A stretch of 23,789 nt of DNA, taken from a virus. Below the pieces are notes generated by a model. The model searched no databases. It saw only the letters and a list, made by a program, of their open reading frames with translations, and was not told the DNA's origin. The position numbers and the translations under genes are program-made. Location: the IMG/VR virus record IMGVR_UViG_3300042298_001776, positions 1 through 23,789 of that record. The stretch is one strand, 5' to 3'. Numbering within the stretch: position 1 is the stretch's first letter; each line of letters starts with the position of its first letter. Positions 6,935 to 18,940 of this stretch are shown here, in pieces.

Positions 6935-8577
6935 AATGGCACCTCATCATTCGATTGGTTTTCGTATTCTTCCACAGTCAATCCGACTGGCAACTCGTCA
7001 ATTTCTCGATCCAGCACCTTCCAGAATCGGCCTTCACGCCTGGCAGTCACTGTCCTGGGGATCGCGACCCATTGCCGATTAAACAGGTCGATCGCTTCGT
7101 CGATACCTGCTGGACACTCGACCGACGAATGAATCGACCACCAATCCTCCGCCTTGCGACGTGCAAACCCACCATGCTCAATGCAAACCCACTCGCTGAG
7201 CCCAAACGGCATGTTGGCTTCCTCGAGCGTGTAGGTGACTCGGAGGCTAGGGACCTTGCCATCCTTTTCATGCCTGCTGTAGGTCGCACCAGCAACCGTA
7301 AATGTCTCCGGCTCGGTCAGCGACAGGATCTCCGCTTCGGTGTCTGCCTTTTGATCGTGGTTTGGTGCTCGCTCGAGAAACTCGAATCCGCATTCGCACA
7401 ACCGATCCTTCTTGGAAATGAACGATTCGCAGTTTGGACAAATCTTGTCCGTCTCAGCGGATCCGCCACCCTTGCGATTCCTCGGCCGGCCGTAGTCGAT
7501 CGCGTCAATGGGTCCGTGTCGCTCAATGTTGGAACCAAAATCGAGCACCAGGCAATCACTCTTTGATGGATGCGTTCTCAGTCCTCGGCCGACGATCTGA
7601 GCAAACAACCCTGGTGATGCGGTCGCTCTCAGGATGCAGATCGCGTCAACGCACTGAGCGTCAAACCCAGTCGTCAAAACGTCGACATTGACCAGCCAGC
7701 GAATCTTCATTGCCCGAAAGTCGTTCAGGATCGCAGCTCTCTCGAGCGGCAGCGTGTCGCCCTCGACCATTGCGACCGTCTCACCCGTCATGGTTTCGAT
7801 CGCATTAACCACGCTCAGAGCGTGTTTAACTGTCGTACAAAACACCATGATCGAATGCCGATCGGATGTCTTTGCAACCATTTCCTGGACTGCCTCGGTC
7901 ACCTGAGCACCACCGAACAGCGTCTCGAGTTCCTTTGCCACAAACTCGCCATAGCGAACATGCAAACCCGACGTATCGAAAACCGTCTCGTTTGGCTTGT
8001 TTGTGACGGAGCATAGAAAGCCTTCCTCAATCAAACGCTTGACCGAAGCCTCGTAGCAGATCTTGTGGAACACACCGTCAGGACGGCACAGGGATCCCTC
8101 TCCAGTCCGGAACGGTGTCGCTGTCAATCCGACGACTCGCACATCAGGGTTAATCGTTCGCATGTCCGATAGGAACGTCGAGTACATCCCTTCGCCATCG
8201 GTTGGAACCAAATGCACCTCGTCGATAATAACCAGGTGCCTTCGATCAAATTGACACGCCTTCGAGTAAACCGACTGAATACCACAAAGGACTACATCCA
8301 TCTCCGTCGAGAAACGTCTCAACCCTGCCGAGTATTCGCCGATCGGAATATCCACCAACGCGCGTACCTTTTCAGCGTTCTGCTGGATCAGTTCCTTGCG
8401 GTGCTGCAGGATCAGCACTCGACCGGAATAGTCCTTGACGGCTCGCCGCACGAGCTCGGCGATCACTAGACTCTTTCCGGATCCCGTCGGCAAACAGATC
8501 ACCGGATTGCCGGCCTGGTTACATAGGAACTCGTAGGCCGCGTCGACCGCTTCTTTTTGATACCATCGCAGATCCAT
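6931..8577 (-). CDS. DEAD/DEAH-box superfamily 2 helicase
   Basis: A 548-residue SF2 helicase. RWYQKEA at 4-10 is a Q-motif, PTGSGKS at 30-36 the Walker A, DEVH at 119-122 the Walker B, TATPFR at 152-157 motif III, and QIVGRGLRTHPSK in the second RecA domain motif VI. After the helicase core comes a zinc ribbon (CPNCESFISKKDRLCECGF, about residues 385-405) and a roughly 130-residue C-terminal domain I do not recognise. It resembles the RadD/YejH-type helicases found in many phages. It would act in replication or recombination. ATG at 8577 follows a small GTGCC/GGCAC hairpin at 8588-8602 and has only a weak ribosome binding site; the stop overlaps the HNH start. Confidence 0.9.
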   Translation of the reverse strand: MDLRWYQKEAVDAAYEFLCNQAGNPVICLPTGSGKSLVIAELVRRAVKDYSGRVLILQHRKELIQQNAEKVRALVDIPIGEYSAGLRRFSTEMDVVLCGIQSVYSKACQFDRRHLVIIDEVHLVPTDGEGMYSTFLSDMRTINPDVRVVGLTATPFRTGEGSLCRPDGVFHKICYEASVKRLIEEGFLCSVTNKPNETVFDTSGLHVRYGEFVAKELETLFGGAQVTEAVQEMVAKTSDRHSIMVFCTTVKHALSVVNAIETMTGETVAMVEGDTLPLERAAILNDFRAMKIRWLVNVDVLTTGFDAQCVDAICILRATASPGLFAQIVGRGLRTHPSKSDCLVLDFGSNIERHGPIDAIDYGRPRNRKGGGSAETDKICPNCESFISKKDRLCECGFEFLERAPNHDQKADTEAEILSLTEPETFTVAGATYSRHEKDGKVPSLRVTYTLEEANMPFGLSEWVCIEHGGFARRKAEDWWSIHSSVECPAGIDEAIDLFNRQWVAIPRTVTARREGRFWKVLDREIDELPVGLTVEEYENQSNDEVPF

Positions 8578-11097: not shown

Positions 11098-11112
11098 AAT
11101 CAACTCCTCCAG

Positions 11113-11187
11113 AATCAGCGACGGGATTTGAACCCGCTACTCGGCATCGCCCCCTGCCGTGTGTTTCCTGGATTACACCACGCTGAT
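11113..11187 (-). tRNA. tRNA-like gene with 8-base anticodon loop, no U33
   Basis: On the minus strand the 75 bases fold into a full cloverleaf: acceptor ATCAGCG/CGCTGAT (7 bp), U8-G9, D-arm GTGT/ACAC with a GG in its 10-base loop, anticodon stem CGGCA/TGCCG, variable loop AGTA, T-arm GCGGG-TTCAAAT-CCCGT (one G-T pair), discriminator T. The anticodon loop, however, is 8 bases long (GGGGGCGA) and lacks the universal U33. The isotype therefore cannot be read. No CCA is encoded after the discriminator. It may be a degenerate tRNA, a +1-frameshift-type tRNA or a tRNA mimic. Confidence 0.6.
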
Positions 11188-11374: not shown

Positions 11375-11790
11375 CGCTTACCTCCTAAGCAAAACAAAAA
11401 CCGCACAAACTCACACAGCACTTGCCATCTGTTCTCACGATCGCGTCGATTCATCGCGGCAGCGATCACGTAGATCCGCTCAGGATGCAGACGAAACGCT
11501 TGCACCTCGGTGACCAGCCAGTACACCTGGTCGCATGTTTCGTGATTCCAGATCCAATACAGTCCGCAACGCATCCACGCGGGACGGACGTTGAGCAGAT
11601 TGAGCTTGAGGAACTCAGCCTCCAGCCAGTAGAAATCGATGTGATCAAGCGAGATCGATCCCTTGCCACCGCAGTAGCAACAATCGTCGGCCAGTTGCCC
11701 GCGACGCTCGCACCACTCGCAATCGATCGACTCGATCACGTCATCAATGAAGCGTTCGATGCAGCGATCAATTGCAGCTTCAGTTGTCAT
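11371..11790 (-). CDS. Hypothetical zinc-finger protein, 139 aa
   Basis: ATG at 11790 lies within the end of the csrA-like gene, the reading frames overlapping by 11 bases, so translation is probably coupled. The N-terminal half contains C24xxC27 and C37xxC40 with CYCGGKG, a DnaJ-like zinc finger arrangement. The rest is rich in Trp, Tyr and Leu, for example RCGLYWIWNHETCDQVYWLV, and ends with a hydrophobic VRFLFCLGGKR. It is probably a soluble, zinc-binding, small phage early protein; its partner or substrate is unknown. Confidence 0.65.
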   Translation of the reverse strand: MTTEAAIDRCIERFIDDVIESIDCEWCERRGQLADDCCYCGGKGSISLDHIDFYWLEAEFLKLNLLNVRPAWMRCGLYWIWNHETCDQVYWLVTEVQAFRLHPERIYVIAAAMNRRDRENRWQVLCEFVRFLFCLGGKR

Positions 11791-11953
11791 CAGTCGATTC
11801 CTTTCGATCTAACAGTTCGCCACGCACAATGCTGACATTTTCCGGAGCATCAATCGCCAAACTGATTTGGTTGACGCCGCAGCGGTTGACGACGATGCGG
11901 ATGTTTCCGCCGATCACGATGCACTCGTCTTTCTTCCTGCCTAGAACTAACAT
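11780..11953 (-). CDS. csrA: CsrA-family translational regulator
   Basis: A 57-residue protein starting MLVLGRKKDECIVIGGNIRI, followed by NQISLAIDAPENVSIVRGEL. This matches CsrA nearly position for position: the MLVLxRK start of the first strand, xESIxIG-type turn, the VxLxIxAP strand and the V-S-V-x-R-x-E end that supplies the essential RNA-binding Arg (here R44). CsrA dimers bind GGA motifs in mRNA leaders and block or promote translation. The start is ATG at 11953 with GGAG 7 bases upstream. The last bases overlap the next gene and the first 104 bases overlap, out of frame, the end of the excisionase-like gene. A phage CsrA could retune host mRNA use or the timing of its own genes. Confidence 0.9.
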   Translation of the reverse strand: MLVLGRKKDECIVIGGNIRIVVNRCGVNQISLAIDAPENVSIVRGELLDRKESTDDN

Positions 11954-12155
11954 TGCTTCTCTCCTTAGTCGCTAGAAACTTCTTTAACTCACTCACCAAA
12001 AACTTCCGTGGCCCACGATCTGAGAACAGATAAATGGGATTTAACTGGCCTGTCTTGCACAGCTCACGCAATTTGGTTTGACCAATGCTGAGCATTCGAG
12101 CTGCCTCCCTCGCACTCACGGCCAGAGCCGGTGCTACTTCTTTGCGGTAGAGCAT
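11850..12155 (-). CDS. Excisionase-like HTH protein
   Basis: The first 63 residues form a helix-turn-helix of the excisionase/HTH_17 type: ALAVSAREAARMLSIGQTKLRELCKTG followed by a wing (LNPIYLFSDRGPRKFLVSELKKFLA). Such proteins bend att-site DNA to drive excision or act as repressors. ATG at 12155 has GGGAG 7 bases upstream and overlaps the preceding gene by 22 bases. The last 35 residues are extremely basic (RRVHRDRRKHPHRR...) and come from DNA that is also the start of csrA in another frame, so the tail is probably a consequence of the overlap. As the second gene from the early promoter and with an integrase nearby, an excisionase is a reasonable guess. Confidence 0.7.
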   Translation of the reverse strand: MLYRKEVAPALAVSAREAARMLSIGQTKLRELCKTGQLNPIYLFSDRGPRKFLVSELKKFLATKERSNVSSRQEERRVHRDRRKHPHRRQPLRRQPNQFGD

Positions 12156-12406
12156 CGCTTGGCTCCCAATAGCTCAACGATGATTGGATTGCTGGGCGGA
12201 CGACCGCTGCGATTGCGAGGCAACCACTTTCCAGCCTCGACACGTTCTTCGTCGCTGGTCAACCCATTGCGGATTGCTCGGTACGTTGTCTTCGCACATG
12301 CGTCGTGCACACCACGCACAACGCGATCACCGAGAGGCTCGCCACATGTCAGGCAGATTCCTAACCGCGTGCACTTCTCAATCTTCTTCTTAACTTCCGG
12401 TTTCAT
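12134..12406 (-). CDS. Zinc-ribbon protein, first gene of early operon
   Basis: A 90-residue basic protein with C18xxC21 and, after RGVH, C37, giving a CxxC...HxxC zinc site; then TYRAIRNGLTSDEERVEAGKWLPRNRSGRPP. The same order (CxxC, RG, CxxC-like, AI..G, AG...PR...GRxP) is seen in the divergently transcribed protein at 12587, so the two are probably related. ATG at 12406 has AGGAG 6 bases upstream, and a well-formed promoter (12446-12474) sits in front. As the first early gene, facing the lysogeny module, it is a likely transcription regulator. No precise family is recognised. Confidence 0.65.
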   Translation of the reverse strand: MKPEVKKKIEKCTRLGICLTCGEPLGDRVVRGVHDACAKTTYRAIRNGLTSDEERVEAGKWLPRNRSGRPPSNPIIVELLGAKRCSTAKK

Positions 12407-12445
12407 TTCGATCTCCTACGTGAGCACCATGCTCAACGGCAGAGG

Positions 12446-12474
12446 ATCTTATCGACCCTAAATACGTTTTGCAA
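12446..12474 (-). promoter_or_regulatory. Sigma70-type promoter of the early operon
   Basis: On the minus strand a -35 box TTGCAA (12474-12469) and a -10 box TAAGAT (12451-12446) are separated by exactly 17 bases. Transcription would begin near 12439, about 33 bases upstream of the ATG at 12406, and could run through the whole minus-strand early operon. TTTTGCAA occurs again near 12500, possibly part of an operator. Confidence 0.6.
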
Positions 12475-12554
12475 CACAATTCCGGACAGAATCCGCAAAG
12501 TTTTTTGCAATGCGTTTCGTAAGTGTTTTTGGTCAAAAGATTTAGGCGTCCTTG

Positions 12555-12579
12555 ATTGTTTGAAAAGTTCTGAAACAAT
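12555..12579. promoter_or_regulatory. Imperfect inverted repeat, possible operator
   Basis: ATTGTTT and AAACAAT are separated by 11 bases, with partial symmetry inside (about 20 of 25 positions symmetric). It lies directly before the ATG at 12587 and opposite the early promoter, where a lysogeny repressor would be expected to bind. I see no convincing plus-strand -10/-35 pair here. Confidence 0.4.
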
Positions 12580-12586
12580 TCGATCT

Positions 12587-12994
12587 ATGACCCAAAACAC
12601 TGAGCTACGCCAAGCAGTAAAGCACCTAGAGTCCGCACTTTCTGTGTTGAAGAAACTGTTGCAAATTACGAACGCTGCTGCGGACAATGCGTTGCATGAC
12701 GCAAATAGCAAAGAATTATGCTTGGAATGCAAGAATCCGTCGCGACCGATCCATCGGCGTGGCCTGTGCAACGGATGCTACCACGCGGCAATGAACGCTA
12801 TCAAAGACGGGGCTTTTACGGACGACCAGCTACTTGCAGCTGGTCGAATTGGACCTCGGCAAAAGCCCGGTAGAAAGCCTACTCGCGACTATTCAAACCT
12901 GCCGTCTCCGCTGGACGCTGCAACTGTACAGGTCGAAAAAACAGAGTGTCCCGAGTCGTCCGCAGCAGCAAAACGGCTTCGCGGCAAGAAATAG
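12587..12994 (+). CDS. Zinc-ribbon protein, candidate lysogeny regulator
   Basis: A 135-residue protein on the plus strand. A predicted helical N-terminus (TELRQAVKHLESALSVLKKLLQ) could form a coiled-coil dimer. Then comes a zinc ribbon, C45xxC48 and C61xxC64 with RRGL between, followed by AMNAIKDGAFTDDQLLAAGRIGPR and a basic GRKPTR segment. The second half is close in pattern to the divergent gene at 12134-12406. The start is ATG at 12587; a TTG at 12560 is possible; neither has a strong ribosome binding site. Standing between the control region and the integrase, it is placed like a phage repressor, but this is inference and the zinc-ribbon fold is unlike CI. Confidence 0.7.
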   Translation: MTQNTELRQAVKHLESALSVLKKLLQITNAAADNALHDANSKELCLECKNPSRPIHRRGLCNGCYHAAMNAIKDGAFTDDQLLAAGRIGPRQKPGRKPTRDYSNLPSPLDAATVQVEKTECPESSAAAKRLRGKK

Positions 12995-13064
12995 GCTTGG
13001 CGTTTACCTGAAAGTATTCTCCATTGCGAAACACGAAAACATCGAATCGGGGTGCAGTACTCAT
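12879..13064 (-). CDS. Possible small gene antisense to 12587 gene end
   Basis: A 61-residue reading frame on the minus strand with ATG at 13064 and GAGAGA just upstream. The first 45 residues (MSTAPRFDVFVFRNGEYFQV... SCREAVLLLRTTRDTLFF) read like a folded small protein with beta strands and a helix; the end, encoded opposite the plus-strand gene, is less convincing. It occupies most of the gap 12995-13174, which otherwise holds nothing clear. It may be a real small regulator transcribed toward the repressor-like gene, or an accidental frame. I give it less than even odds. Confidence 0.4.
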   Translation of the reverse strand: MSTAPRFDVFVFRNGEYFQVNAKPISCREAVLLLRTTRDTLFFRPVQLQRPAETAGLNSRE

Positions 13065-13174
13065 CGTTCTCTCTCAAAGCTAGCTTATGGTTTTTTAACG
13101 GTTCGATTCTTGAGCCCCCGCAGACACGTTAGGTCACATCTCTCCAGAAAGTCAACTTAACCAGTACGACCGAC

Positions 13175-14386
13175 ATGGCACAGCTCACGCAATTAGCAAA
13201 CGGAACGCGGCGAGTGCAGTGGACATCGCCAATCGACGGTGCTCGGCGGACACTACGCCTCGGCAAAGTGTCCAAGCGAGACGCAGAAACCATACGCGGT
13301 CACGTTGCGAATCTGCTCAGTGCTCAATGCCTGGGGGTCGGTGTCGATGCCTCGACCTCAACCTGGCTGTCGAGAGTCTCTGACGCGTTAAAGATCAGGC
13401 TAGCTCGCTGCCATTTGATCACCGGCGTTGAGATCCCACCAAGAACAGTCCGCAAAACGCTGAAGGATTTTTTCGACGCCTACATTGAGCAGCGGCGGTC
13501 TGCCGTCAAACCAGCAACGGTTCTTGTTTGGAAAACGGCTTCGAAGTCGTTTATGGATGCCGTAGGTACGGATCTTCGGATCGACAAGCTGCGAGCCAGC
13601 CACGCCACCACCTGGATCGACGCCATGCGATCCGCAAGCCTCTCTCCAGCAACGCAGCACAAACGCTTAACATTTGTCAAGCAATTCCTGGATCACGCCG
13701 TGGCCGACGAGAAACTGTCAAAGAATCCGTTCTCCGACGTCAAGCTGTCTCGACCCAGCGGCAAAAGCAACGTCGAGGTGACTCGTCAAACCATCGATGG
13801 TTTGATTCAACACCTACCCCCCAAATGGCAAGCGATCGTAGCATTGTGCCGGTACGGAGGTCTTCGGTGTCCCTCCGAGGTGCTTTCGCTTGAGTGGTCA
13901 GGAATTGACTTCAACGCTGGCACCATGCAGATTCATGAGCCAAAGAACGAGCGGCAGCATGGACGCGGCAAGCGTCTCTGTCCGCTGTTCCCAGAGCTTA
14001 GGCCGTACCTCGAAGCGTTACCTAGTCGCGAAGGGTACGTGATCGACGACGCCAAGATGCGAGCGGTGTCCAACACACCGACCGGCTGGGCGAACGTCAA
14101 CCTATCGACAGCGTTGAAACGCTACCTGAAGCAAGCCGACATCAAACCGTGGCCGCGTTTATTTCATTCGCTTCGAGCGAGTCGCCAGACCGAACTGGAA
14201 CGGGATTTCGGACTGACCGCAGCGTGTGCCTGGCTCGGCAACACCGAGAGCGTTGCAAAGCAAAGCTACCTGCTGGTGACCAGCGATCTATGGGCGTCTG
14301 CCTCTGGACAGGCGGACGTAAAAAGGGACGTAAAAAAGGACGTATCGAACGTCATCAAAGGTCGTCAAGGTCGAGTGCGACAATAA
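13175..14386 (+). CDS. int: Tyrosine recombinase (phage integrase)
   Basis: A 403-residue site-specific recombinase. The core-binding domain spans about 90-185. The catalytic domain shows R231 in CRYGGLRCPSEVL, H331 and R334 in LFHSLRAS, LGNTES at 354-359 (where LGH is usual, so the second His/Trp is Asn), and the nucleophile Y365 in KQSYLLV. It would integrate the phage into the host chromosome at the candidate attP directly downstream. It lacks the extra helical insertion of integron integrases, so it is a phage-type integrase. ATG at 13175 has no clear ribosome binding site. The C-terminal tail DVKRDVKKDV is the translation of three GGACGTAAAAA-type DNA repeats that probably serve as arm sites, so this DNA has two roles. 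Confidence 0.9.
   Translation: MAQLTQLANGTRRVQWTSPIDGARRTLRLGKVSKRDAETIRGHVANLLSAQCLGVGVDASTSTWLSRVSDALKIRLARCHLITGVEIPPRTVRKTLKDFFDAYIEQRRSAVKPATVLVWKTASKSFMDAVGTDLRIDKLRASHATTWIDAMRSASLSPATQHKRLTFVKQFLDHAVADEKLSKNPFSDVKLSRPSGKSNVEVTRQTIDGLIQHLPPKWQAIVALCRYGGLRCPSEVLSLEWSGIDFNAGTMQIHEPKNERQHGRGKRLCPLFPELRPYLEALPSREGYVIDDAKMRAVSNTPTGWANVNLSTALKRYLKQADIKPWPRLFHSLRASRQTELERDFGLTAACAWLGNTESVAKQSYLLVTSDLWASASGQADVKRDVKKDVSNVIKGRQGRVRQ
14314..14344 (+). repeat. Direct repeats in int 3' end (likely arm-type sites)
   Basis: Three copies of GGACGTA (14314, 14326 and 14338), 12 bases apart, the first two followed by runs of A. A matching GGACGTAAAAAG is found beyond the core at 14497. Repeats on both sides of an att core are typical arm-type binding sites of tyrosine integrases. 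Confidence 0.55.
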
Positions 14387-14520: not shown

Positions 14521-14638
14521 AACGACGGCGTTGTCGGTCCGATCATGATCTTTTTGGCATCTTGTGGCTAGCGTGGCCGCTGATGATTACGATGCGGACA
14601 TCGCATCATTTCGGTTTCTTTCGCTCGGGGAATTTGTT

Positions 14639-15232
14639 ATGGCTTGGAAAGTGTATTTGCCGACCGGTACGGTCGAAGTCGGTTCCGCGGATCTAAAACG
14701 TATGGCGGCCAGCGGCGAGATTGAGAAGTCGACGATTGTTGAGTCGACAACCAATAAGGTCAGGACTCAAGCTGTTGGGATCGCTGGATTGGTGTTCAAG
14801 TCGGAAGATGTAAATCTGTTGGATTTGCCCGTCCCTGAAGTGCCGCAGACTCCGCCGACCTGGAACCCGCCAGAGGAGCAGACAGCTTTCCAAGAGCCTG
14901 CATGGACGAAGAAGGTGGAATACGTGAATGTCGTTCCTTCTGGATTCAGTGCTCTATTTGACATCAATTTTAATTCGATGTGGACGCCAATGCTGCTCAG
15001 CATGGTTTGGATTACTTGGTTAGTTGTCGGAGTATTGGCTGCTATCTTGCAAATCGTTGCCTACGCTTCCACAGTTGGGGTTTCCGGTTCTACAACTGAC
15101 CGGAACATTGCCATTGGTACTGGATTCCTCATCATTCTCGGCGGAACTGTGGTTATCCGCGTTGCGCTTGAAACCATTGCTGTTATCTTTAAAATCTGCG
15201 AGTATCTGAAGCGGTTGGATGAAAAGTCCTAA
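14639..15232 (+). CDS. GYF_2-DUF4282 membrane protein
   Basis: A 197-residue protein. The N-terminus MAWKVYLPTGTVEVGSADL...RMAASGEIEKSTIV...AGLVF follows the GYF_2 (DUF4339) pattern common in planctomycete and related bacteria. After a Pro/Glu-rich linker comes a DUF4282 domain: FSALFDINFNSMWTPMLLSM, first membrane segment (about 140-160), a Ser/Thr loop, second segment (FLIILGGTVVIRVALET) and the typical IAVIFKICEYLKRLDE end. ATG at 14639 is chosen because GGGGAA lies 7-8 bases upstream; the frame is open to 14564. It is the only plus-strand gene between attP and the late operon, a position typical for lysogenic-conversion genes, so it may alter the lysogen's membrane or block superinfection. 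Function is inference. Confidence 0.7.
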   Translation: MAWKVYLPTGTVEVGSADLKRMAASGEIEKSTIVESTTNKVRTQAVGIAGLVFKSEDVNLLDLPVPEVPQTPPTWNPPEEQTAFQEPAWTKKVEYVNVVPSGFSALFDINFNSMWTPMLLSMVWITWLVVGVLAAILQIVAYASTVGVSGSTTDRNIAIGTGFLIILGGTVVIRVALETIAVIFKICEYLKRLDEKS

Positions 15233-16515: not shown

Positions 16516-17559
16516 TTAGGTGAGGATGCGTTTCGCCGTTTCTAGCTTGTCTTTGCAAGTCGCTAGGTGGATGATGTGTGCGTCGTCGAGTCCATCCCAG
16601 AACTCTTTGAAATAAAATTGCCAGTTGAACCGTGAGTCGAGCAGCTCGTAACCGTGTTTGATCGCCTGCTGCTCAACGACAATCTGCTCGGCACAGTGGC
16701 TCGTCGGTATGGTTTCTGGCGGTGCAGTCCAAACAGACGCTGCCGATTTTCGCGTGTAGACAACGCCAGAGTTTAGGCAGATGTCGCTGTTGTCGTACTC
16801 CATGCCAATCGCTGTGCAGACGTCGCATCGTTCAGATCGCAACCAATCGATGCTCTGGAGGTACCGTGCATCATCATGAATCATGAGATCGCAGGATTGG
16901 CCGAACAGCGATGGACAGGATTCCTTGATGATGCAGTCGGCATCGACAAAAAGCACTTCCTCGTATTGCTCGACAAAATGCCGCGTGCGGAACTTTTCAA
17001 GTCCCCACCAGGATTTGGTCGAGTTTGTCAAGGCGATGTAGTCCGCTCGGCAGCGGTCAGCGTAGGCCTTGATCGTTGGTCCGGTGATCTCAAGAAGATC
17101 GAGGTACTCGCGGCCAGTTGCAACGGTAACGACTGCTTTGGTTTTGCCAGACCAGGGCCGAACGTTTCGCCAGAGGGTGAGTGCCTGGCCGAGCGTCAGT
17201 TCAGCCTTGCCAAGCTTTCGATTAACTGCGTTGTGAATGCGTACCGTCCAATGGAAGAACGCCATTGGACTGGAGTAGTCTGGTGGCATTTCCTTGATAA
17301 TTTGCTGGTATCCCGTTTTGCATTCACAGCGATTTGGAATGAAGTAAACCCATAGGTCCATCCATTGCGGATCACATCCTCGATAGGAATGCAGCAGTTT
17401 CCAAGCAAATCTTCCTGCGTTTCCAATAGCGTCCTGTGATGGAATTAAGTTTTGCTCACGCTGGGAGTAAGCATTCACAGTTTGCGTACTCATTTGCTTT
17501 ACTTGTTTCTTTATTGTTCCGTCGGGAACTACACCAGAACCAAGTTCGATTGTTGCCAT
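16516..17559 (-). CDS. Glycosyltransferase with Erv-like N-terminal domain
   Basis: A 347-residue two-domain protein. Residues about 50-125 (FAWKLLHSY ... IPNRCECKTGYQQII ... PPDYSSPMAFFHWTVRIHNAVNRKLGK) follow the layout of Erv/ALR sulfhydryl oxidases: W..LH, a cysteine pair, a Pro-Pro turn and the HNxVNxxLGK helix that binds FAD. The cysteine pair is CxC (C78, C80) instead of CxxC, so activity is uncertain. From about 140 a GT-A glycosyltransferase domain follows, with the DxD motif in LFVDADCI (D206, D208) and a CDLMIHDDARY segment. ATG at 17559 is chosen for its AGGA 5 bases upstream; the frame is open to 17580, inside the previous gene. It directly follows the cysteine-rich virion protein. 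Confidence 0.7.
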   Translation of the reverse strand: MATIELGSGVVPDGTIKKQVKQMSTQTVNAYSQREQNLIPSQDAIGNAGRFAWKLLHSYRGCDPQWMDLWVYFIPNRCECKTGYQQIIKEMPPDYSSPMAFFHWTVRIHNAVNRKLGKAELTLGQALTLWRNVRPWSGKTKAVVTVATGREYLDLLEITGPTIKAYADRCRADYIALTNSTKSWWGLEKFRTRHFVEQYEEVLFVDADCIIKESCPSLFGQSCDLMIHDDARYLQSIDWLRSERCDVCTAIGMEYDNSDICLNSGVVYTRKSAASVWTAPPETIPTSHCAEQIVVEQQAIKHGYELLDSRFNWQFYFKEFWDGLDDAHIIHLATCKDKLETAKRILT

Positions 17560-17572
17560 TTGAGTCCTGTTT

Positions 17573-18940
17573 TTAAGCAAAAGTTACTGACCAACTAGGC
17601 GAATTAAAACAGCACTGGCGACTGACGAATGTGCATGCTTTTTCCACATCGCGAGACAAAAACACTTCGTAGACGTAAAATTTAATCGTTCCACAACCGA
17701 ATAAGGTGCAAGTAGTCGCAGCCCACTCATCCCAGTAGCAATCAGAATTTTCGTCGCATGTTTTTATGAAATAGAGCTGATAAAACTGTCCTGGCCCCAA
17801 CGCGCAACTTACGTTCAACCAATAATCTATTTTCGTCTCGCACTCATCCAGATTGCCGATTGCTTCGCCTGCATAAACTGTTTGAGTCCCGCAATCGAAT
17901 GAATAGCATTCACTTGGTTCACAAAACGAATCCAGCACGTCTCCGTCGCAACACCCGATAAAAATCGTATATGGATAATCAGGCGACCCAGGTACAGTTA
18001 TTGGTATGCATTCCCGCTGGCAACACAAATTGTCGATGTTTACGGTTGTAGGTGTTAAAGACTTGCTGGTGGAAACATTGCAATCGCAAAGATCAATCTC
18101 GACATTACACGCCGGAACTGAAGAAACTGAAAAGCACAGCGATGTTTCACGAGCGTCGTTAGATCCGCAGCTATCCCAGACGCAGTCAGATCCTAGATCG
18201 GAATCCGTAAAAGTCACCGTACCAGTTGGAAGAGTATCGTAAAATTTGACTCTGTTGAAACTGGCAAGTCCGCTCGATAGCACACACAGTATCCCCGGCC
18301 CAGTTAAATCGTTCAGATCGCAGGTTCCTGTTTCCTCGTCACTACACGACAATGTTGGTGCTGGATCGTCGTTGATGGACACACAAGGATCGGTTAATCC
18401 GGTTATTTCCCTGGTTAGTGTAACGGTTCTATCTCGAATTATGCGTGCAACATAATTGAAGAAATACTTTGATGACACAATCCACTTAGTGACAGGAGAC
18501 GCATCTCCGCATGTAACCTCTTGCTTCGAAATGCAAATCTCTATGTATGCTAATTTTATTCCAGACAAAAGCTTGTATTTGTTTTCCTGAATAAGGGTTG
18601 AACTTAGATCAAACAAGGTTGATTCAGGATCTGGACAGCAGTGAACCTGTTCAACAGTAAAAGAGCATGGTAGCAAATCTGTCGGCAACCCAACCTTCGG
18701 CTTTACCGTTGGTTTTTTTATGTATCTGCGGATTTCATCAATGGTGCGGGTTTGTGTTAAAAACGCCGACGAACAGCAATTTTGCCACTGCAAATTGTAT
18801 GGATCGTTTGGTGAAAGCGTCATGCATTTGCAGCATAGCCCGCTCCAACTTGATGCAGTCCATCCAGTCTTGGTAATTGTAGGAAGTTCGTAGTTGTCTG
18901 GTATGTAGCAAGTGCAGCAGCAGTTCCCAATGGTCCCCAT
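17573..18940 (-). CDS. Cysteine-rich virion protein (41 Cys in 455 aa)
   Basis: A 455-residue protein beginning MGTIGNCCCTC, with 41 cysteines spread over its length, many as CC or CxC pairs (CCKC, NCC, CCQREC, CDC). The rest is rich in Ser, Thr, Asp and aromatic residues, suggesting a beta-rich extracellular structure. It contains no membrane segment or known domain. The ATG at 18940 follows the previous stop without a gap (TAAATG). Its place after the tape measure and tail proteins suits a tail tip, baseplate or fibre protein. Such a cysteine content suggests a disulfide- or metal-stabilised structure; the next gene carries an Erv-like domain, which may not be chance. Confidence 0.65.
   Translation of the reverse strand: MGTIGNCCCTCYIPDNYELPTITKTGWTASSWSGLCCKCMTLSPNDPYNLQWQNCCSSAFLTQTRTIDEIRRYIKKPTVKPKVGLPTDLLPCSFTVEQVHCCPDPESTLFDLSSTLIQENKYKLLSGIKLAYIEICISKQEVTCGDASPVTKWIVSSKYFFNYVARIIRDRTVTLTREITGLTDPCVSINDDPAPTLSCSDEETGTCDLNDLTGPGILCVLSSGLASFNRVKFYDTLPTGTVTFTDSDLGSDCVWDSCGSNDARETSLCFSVSSVPACNVEIDLCDCNVSTSKSLTPTTVNIDNLCCQRECIPITVPGSPDYPYTIFIGCCDGDVLDSFCEPSECYSFDCGTQTVYAGEAIGNLDECETKIDYWLNVSCALGPGQFYQLYFIKTCDENSDCYWDEWAATTCTLFGCGTIKFYVYEVFLSRDVEKACTFVSRQCCFNSPSWSVTFA

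Follow-up and report, generated by a model that had tools for sequence, protein, structure and literature searches.

Introduction

Lysogeny control is best known from helix-turn-helix (HTH) repressors in phages of a few host phyla. In lambdoid phages, CI and Cro share a fold and are encoded by divergent genes; one gene lies next to the integrase gene on the lysogeny side, the other heads the early operon, and the immunity region is a cassette exchanged between conserved flanks. The message of lambda cI from PRM is leaderless. Small zinc-finger regulators are also found in phages; the Ogr/Delta proteins of P2/P4 phages are late-gene activators. DksA acts on RNA polymerase and not on operators. 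MrpR, the master lysogeny repressor of prophage SPbeta, is not of the classical CI type; it is folded like a tyrosine recombinase, and its site of action is a repeated element of the SPbeta genome (PMC10516654).

We analysed a 23.8-kb virus record (the whole stretch, called the window below) in which two divergent genes, zrL and zrR, have the CI/Cro arrangement: zrR lies on the lysogeny side by the integrase gene, zrL is first in the early operon, the two share a common predicted fold, and the segment holding them is exchanged between conserved flanks. As with lambda cI, the putative zrR promoter is near enough to the ATG to allow a leaderless message. Unlike CI and Cro, zrL and zrR have neither an HTH nor a CI protease-like domain but a metal ribbon with a basic tail, and their regulation is predicted. 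As putative small zinc-finger regulators of phages they resemble Ogr/Delta; they differ in cysteine spacing, in the late-gene role of Ogr/Delta and in having no Pfam match to that family. MrpR is a precedent for a master repressor of non-CI type, as is proposed here for zrR; it differs in its tyrosine-recombinase fold and is not known to be paired with a divergent paralogue (PMC10516654).

Results

Layout of the locus

The original prediction placed two zinc-ribbon genes on either side of a 180-bp gap, and its coordinates and motif description were correct when checked against the sequence and the open reading frames. The features of the locus are as follows (L085 and L086 are contigs of the related viruses L008 and L007, respectively).

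11780-11953, minus strand: CsrA homologue (PF02599, 3.5e-18), early operon, after zrL or HTH_17
11850-12155, minus strand: HTH_17 (excisionase-like) protein, encoded second in the early operon by a gene that overlaps the zrL 3' end
12134-12406, minus strand: zrL, 90 aa, first gene of the early (leftward) operon, SGRPP tail
12166-13070, no strand: exchanged cassette (zrL-control region-zrR), without blastn similarity to L085; 12166-13172 against L086
12407-12586, no strand: control region, 180 bp between the divergent starts, 41% GC
12446-12474, minus strand: promoter-like TTGCAA-17-TAAGAT towards zrL, 8/12
12552-12579, plus strand: promoter-like TTGATT-16-AACAAT, the -10 ending 7 nt before the zrR ATG
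12555-12579, no strand: candidate operator, a 25-bp imperfect palindrome (ATTGTTTGAAAAGTTCTGAAACAAT) that covers the putative zrR promoter, weak on its own with a score reached by about 19% of background windows
12587-12994, plus strand: zrR, 135 aa, ATG at 12587 and stop at 12994, first gene of the lysogeny module
12879-13064, minus strand: small convergent ORF overlapping the 3' end of zrR, within the exchanged cassette
13175-14386, plus strand: tyrosine integrase, lysogeny module

A GGAG ribosome site lies immediately upstream of zrL, and zrR has an alternative TTG start at 12560. Leftward from the gap, the gene order is zrL, HTH_17, CsrA, AAA_24 ATPase, DUF669, DEAD/ResIII helicase, PriCT primase and RusA; rightward, it is zrR, tyrosine integrase and DUF4282 membrane protein. 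L007 (5332-5523) and L008 (5339-5551) have weakly conserved counterparts of the small convergent ORF at the corresponding position.

At the switch, the place usually held by a CI/Cro-type HTH protein, an HTH_3 search gave no match in six records (G000, G007, G008, G009, G232 and the L126 record). The sole HTH_3 match in the window was weak and fell at 759-836, within a small protein of the HTH_17 type encoded next to RusA. An HTH_17 domain was found in the neighbour at 11850-12155, which matched phrog_66 (phage excisionase/regulator-like) at 1.4e-4, and was absent from zrL and zrR.

Kinship and predicted folds of zrL and zrR

The metal-site motif of zrL is C18-x2-C21...H34-x2-C37 (CLTC...RGVHDAC...RAIRNG...EAGKWLPRNRSGRPP), and that of zrR is C45-x2-C48...C61-x2-C64 (CLEC...RGLCNGC...NAIKDG...AAGRIGPRQKPGRKP). 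Downstream of the ribbon, RAIRNG in zrL and NAIKDG in zrR are followed by AG and then by SGRPP and PGRKP, respectively. The claim that the two proteins are related was confirmed. BLASTP aligned them at 32% over 56 aa (E=2e-9), and their Smith-Waterman score was 88, against 26.6 +/- 4.9 for shuffles. A profile built from the six left (zrL) proteins only recovered 7/7 right (zrR) proteins with E values of 1e-6 to 1e-18, the best shuffled decoy reaching 0.02, and the converse profile likewise recovered every left protein. Inside each phage, the likeness of the pair gave Z values of 8.5-17 in five of the six loci and 3.1 in the remaining one; zrL and zrR gave no indication of co-varying within phages (21/120 permutations).

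In the predicted folds, both proteins have a CxxC knuckle followed by two helices, the first starting at the second metal pair and the second short, and end in a low-confidence basic tail. The models of zrL and zrR show a knuckle with two short helices and no three-helix HTH. In zrR an extra N-terminal helix is predicted at residues 2-42 of the window protein (pLDDT 81-96 over the first 30 residues); the extra N-terminal stretch is carried by the right proteins only, and it was amphipathic beyond chance in some members only. Comparison of the two models, which the original prediction had proposed, showed agreement in the order and length of the elements. A treble-clef layout fits both models, with a best structural Z of 2.4-2.5 (weak) to the Parkin RING and HRD1 zinc fingers. 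Like treble-clef fingers of the GATA and nuclear receptor type, zrL and zrR are predicted to have a CxxC knuckle and a second metal pair at a helix start; they gave no sequence or fold match to such fingers, and the comparison concerns layout only. A hidden HTH in zrR (helix 62-74 then 79-85) was considered and rejected, since the model lacks the third helix that such a domain should have.

Neither protein had a significant match in Pfam, PHROGs, NCBIfam or PADLOC, and a PDB sequence search, run for zrR only, returned nothing significant. No match to the pair was found by tblastn against 50,697 phage genomes, and a plasmid search gave a single chance-level match. Foldseek and VIA-align returned no trustworthy structural match, an absence that does not by itself indicate a new fold. 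HTH families of Pfam did not match zrL or zrR at E<=10, and Ogr/Delta (PF04606) matched neither of the two at E<=10 nor any of 11 family members at E<=1. The DksA-like phrog_54, whose namesake targets RNA polymerase, matched 2/11 members (best E 0.074, far from significance), and no member had a Pfam match to the DksA/TraR family. Because neither a homologue of known function nor a fold match was found, we treat DNA binding as presumptive. The literature searched, which lacks most subscription papers, yielded no paper on zinc-ribbon lysogeny repressors and no relevant study of regulation in Planctomycetota phages. The logic of the switch would be a known one and the protein family appears to be new, judged from the lack of matches in cultivated phages, plasmids, profile libraries and solved structures.

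The pair in other phages and prophages

A search for the pair in other planctomycete phages, also suggested by the original prediction, found it in five further phage or prophage loci, so that the divergent arrangement is kept in six independent loci (the window, L007, L008, L107, L108 and L126). The orthologues are as follows.

zrL: L007:6001-6273, L008:5971-6234, L107:7753-8013, L108:2471-2707, L126:5001-5261
zrR: L007:5429-5815, L008:5403-5786, L107:7128-7538, L108:3153-3566, L126:4424-4789, L087:5671-6081

L007 and L008 are two other virus contigs that share with the window the divergent pair, the integrase, HTH_17 and csrA; L003/L004 hold 100% copies of the window's proteins. A genome scan with an alignment of the C-terminal half of the integrase led to Planctomycetota, with top matches in Pirellula. 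When 396 species genomes of the order and 397 of the class were searched with profiles, two of them, G232 and G244, proved to carry the pair, and the genus group of G232 contains Pirellula-labelled genomes (G002-G004). The sixth pair, L126, came from a later viral scan. Matches in G110, G326, G080 and G238 were weak, lay in other settings and were not used.

In G232, the pair belongs to a 47.9-kb prophage (L107) in a Planctomycetota chromosome (G232:C1:1037683-1085654). Its ends are a 44-bp att repeat, equal to the 3' end of tRNA-Pro, at 1037683 and 1085611; between the repeats lie int, zrR, zrL, csrA and terminase-like, portal-like and tail genes, with the integrase gene adjoining tRNA-Pro. 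The order is int, HTH_17 with a methylase-like gene, membrane protein, zrR, control region, zrL, csrA and recombination genes. This prophage, in tRNA-Pro(cgg), is apparently intact and sits in a complete-looking Pirellula-group chromosome, making it a possible laboratory model.

In L087-L090, zrR occurs without zrL and faces an HTH_17 gene that starts the early operon, indicating that zrL is dispensable in some phages. Single or tandem ribbons of a wider family occur in early operons of planctomycete (pro)phages (L109:1520-2016 and L110:3293-3475); they are more distant, lie beside an HTH-like gene and have no divergent ribbon partner.

Several further observations were made at these loci. In-frame upstream ATGs at L107:7717, L108 about 2761 and L126:4965 would add similar N-terminal extensions of 12-18 residues to zrL (MRIQTFVMGFVDM, MQVSIKETRWIEVKKSAM and MRVKINVTRWVVM, respectively), and the true zrL start may lie there in these three. 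The CsrA homologue recurs in early operons close behind zrL (window 11780-11953; L107 about 8230-8420; L126:5437-5664; L110:2608-2880). Early operons also carry tRNA or tRNA-like genes (L126:5323-5396; L107:8070-8138; window 11112-11187), placed between zrL and csrA in L126 (tRNA-Met) and G232 (odd anticodon). The membrane protein (window 14564-15232, plus strand; L107:6475-7128; L126:3794-4414) has an N-terminal segment that looks GYF-like by eye, and the DUF4282 match is that of the window copy. Its place directly after zrR in G232 and L126 makes expression in the lysogen probable, and the protein is a candidate for exclusion or conversion.

Exchange of the cassette

The window was compared with L085 and L086 by blastn. 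On the left flank, DNA identity was 91% to L085 (up to 12166) and 86% to L086 (up to 12165); on the right flank it was 86% to L085 (from 13070) and 84.5% to L086 (from 13173). The left border of the dissimilar segment agreed within one base in both comparisons and lies where the end of zrL overlaps the start of HTH_17. Protein identities to L085/L086 were 94/79% for HTH_17, 95/72% for CsrA and 93/80% for the integrase, against 52/46% for zrL and undetected/30% for zrR. The same pattern is seen in lambda-type phages when immunity regions are exchanged. Loss of DNA identity across zrL-control region-zrR, with proteins that are still homologous, is the signature of an exchanged heteroimmunity cassette; in these three closest phages, whose flanks are 84-91% identical, the pair and its control region behave as such a cassette, in support of the original reading as a switch. 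Divergence alone is not unique to the cassette, because a second stretch (17287-18914, structural gene region) also loses similarity to L086. A cysteine-rich 455-aa protein is encoded at 17573-18940, and most of its DNA falls in that stretch.

Candidate operators and promoters

In L008, a stretch of 184 bp contains five 11-bp palindromes of the GAAACnGTTTC type, an about 60-fold enrichment over the 10.3 kb outside it, which has four; the five include two pairs spaced 12 bp and overlie promoter-like hexamers on both sides. The G232 control region holds GGAANNNTTCC sites 12 bp apart, and that of the window holds a TTTTGCAA repeat at 36-bp spacing. Palindrome counts were raised in L007, L008 and L087 and were not above background in the control regions of the window, L107 and L108; about 20% of windows in the genome background attain the palindrome density of the window's control region. 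Lag-12 repeats summed over seven regions were reached by 1/300 Markov shuffles; this signal is suggestive only, because the best of all lags was reached by 18/300.

The spacing and promoter signals emerged from post hoc inspection, and a strict sigma-70 scan of the control region gave no site. Promoter-like hexamers towards zrL are stronger in L126 (10/12) and L108 (11/12) than in the window. On the other side, a -10-like box ends 6-8 nt before the zrR ATG in 4/6 pairs (window, L007, L008 and L126), a position that was enriched (P=0.015; 0.33 for the zrL side as control), and the zrR message is possibly leaderless or nearly so.

Discussion

We propose, with a probability of about 0.57, that the 0.9-1.0 kb zrL-control region-zrR segment is the immunity cassette of one group of temperate phages that infect Pirellula-like Planctomycetota, with zrR as repressor and zrL as its counterpart. 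In the corresponding model, in which we infer zinc binding, DNA binding, the identity of the operators, repression and the direction of each effect, zrR would be made in the lysogen and would combine an N-terminal helix for oligomerisation with a treble-clef-like zinc ribbon and a basic GRxP tail. It would bind operator repeats in the control region and shut the early promoter ahead of zrL, HTH_17, csrA and the recombination/replication genes. The first early product, zrL, a ribbon and tail without the helix, would feed back on the control region or on zrR, being either a Cro-like counter-repressor or an antirepressor. We are less sure of this role for zrL than of that proposed for zrR, because one related phage group keeps zrR without zrL.

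The switch of two related ribbons put forward in the original prediction gains from the kinship of the proteins, their recurrent divergence, the lack of HTH_3 matches at the switch in the six records searched and the exchange of the cassette. It is not the sole reading, because the second early gene encodes an HTH_17 protein and zrR alone faces HTH_17 in L087-L090. The arrangement in L087-L090 suits an asymmetric switch in which zrR is the repressor and is opposed on the lytic side by the HTH_17 protein (11850-12155), which would work like P2 Cox as both excisionase and repressor, and zrL is an accessory duplicate tuning zrR or the early promoter; the phrog_66 match, to phage excisionases and regulators, points the same way. 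HTH_17 proteins were present in 5/5 records searched, but their place varies: they lie beside zrL in the small phages, G232 and L126 have none between zrL and csrA, and in G232 the gene adjoins the integrase gene on the lysogeny side, as expected of an excisionase. Moreover, HTH_17 lies outside the cassette and is 79-94% conserved, whereas a partner that reads the operators should change with them. We regard the asymmetric switch as unlikely.

Contacts with RNA polymerase or RNA are common among zinc ribbons, and the ribbons here could be host-takeover or RNA-level regulators (RNA polymerase binding, antitermination or RNA binding next to csrA) in place of operator-binding repressors. The related ribbons within early operons beside csrA and HTH genes, and the lack of a DNA-binding homologue, would fit such a role. 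The exchange of a divergent, lysogeny-side zrR together with intergenic DNA is unexpected for a host-directed factor, and the repeated palindromes in L008 and G232 overlie promoter-like sites, which makes this explanation improbable. Least probable is a fast-evolving accessory pair (counter-defence, exclusion or similar) at the operon junction by chance, with lysogeny kept by an unrecognised protein: arms-race genes are also highly divergent, and the small convergent ORF and nearby DUF4282 membrane protein could be exclusion genes, but PADLOC gave no match, homologous genes flank the control region in six loci with the intervening region exchanged too, and no other regulator candidate is constant across the set.

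On the immunity-cassette reading, a wider proposal can be made, which we hold tentatively and at somewhat less than even odds: two paralogous zinc-ribbon proteins, with and without an oligomerisation helix, would read the same operators, placing CI/Cro logic on a metal-dependent fold, independent of HTH repressors and diversifying by cassette exchange into many immunity types. If true, this would be an independent invention of the paired repressor switch on a zinc fold. It would offer a way to mark immunity groups among these phages and a source of small, testable zinc-dependent regulators, and it would make testable the general question of how commonly a bistable phage switch arises when a single DNA-binding domain is duplicated.
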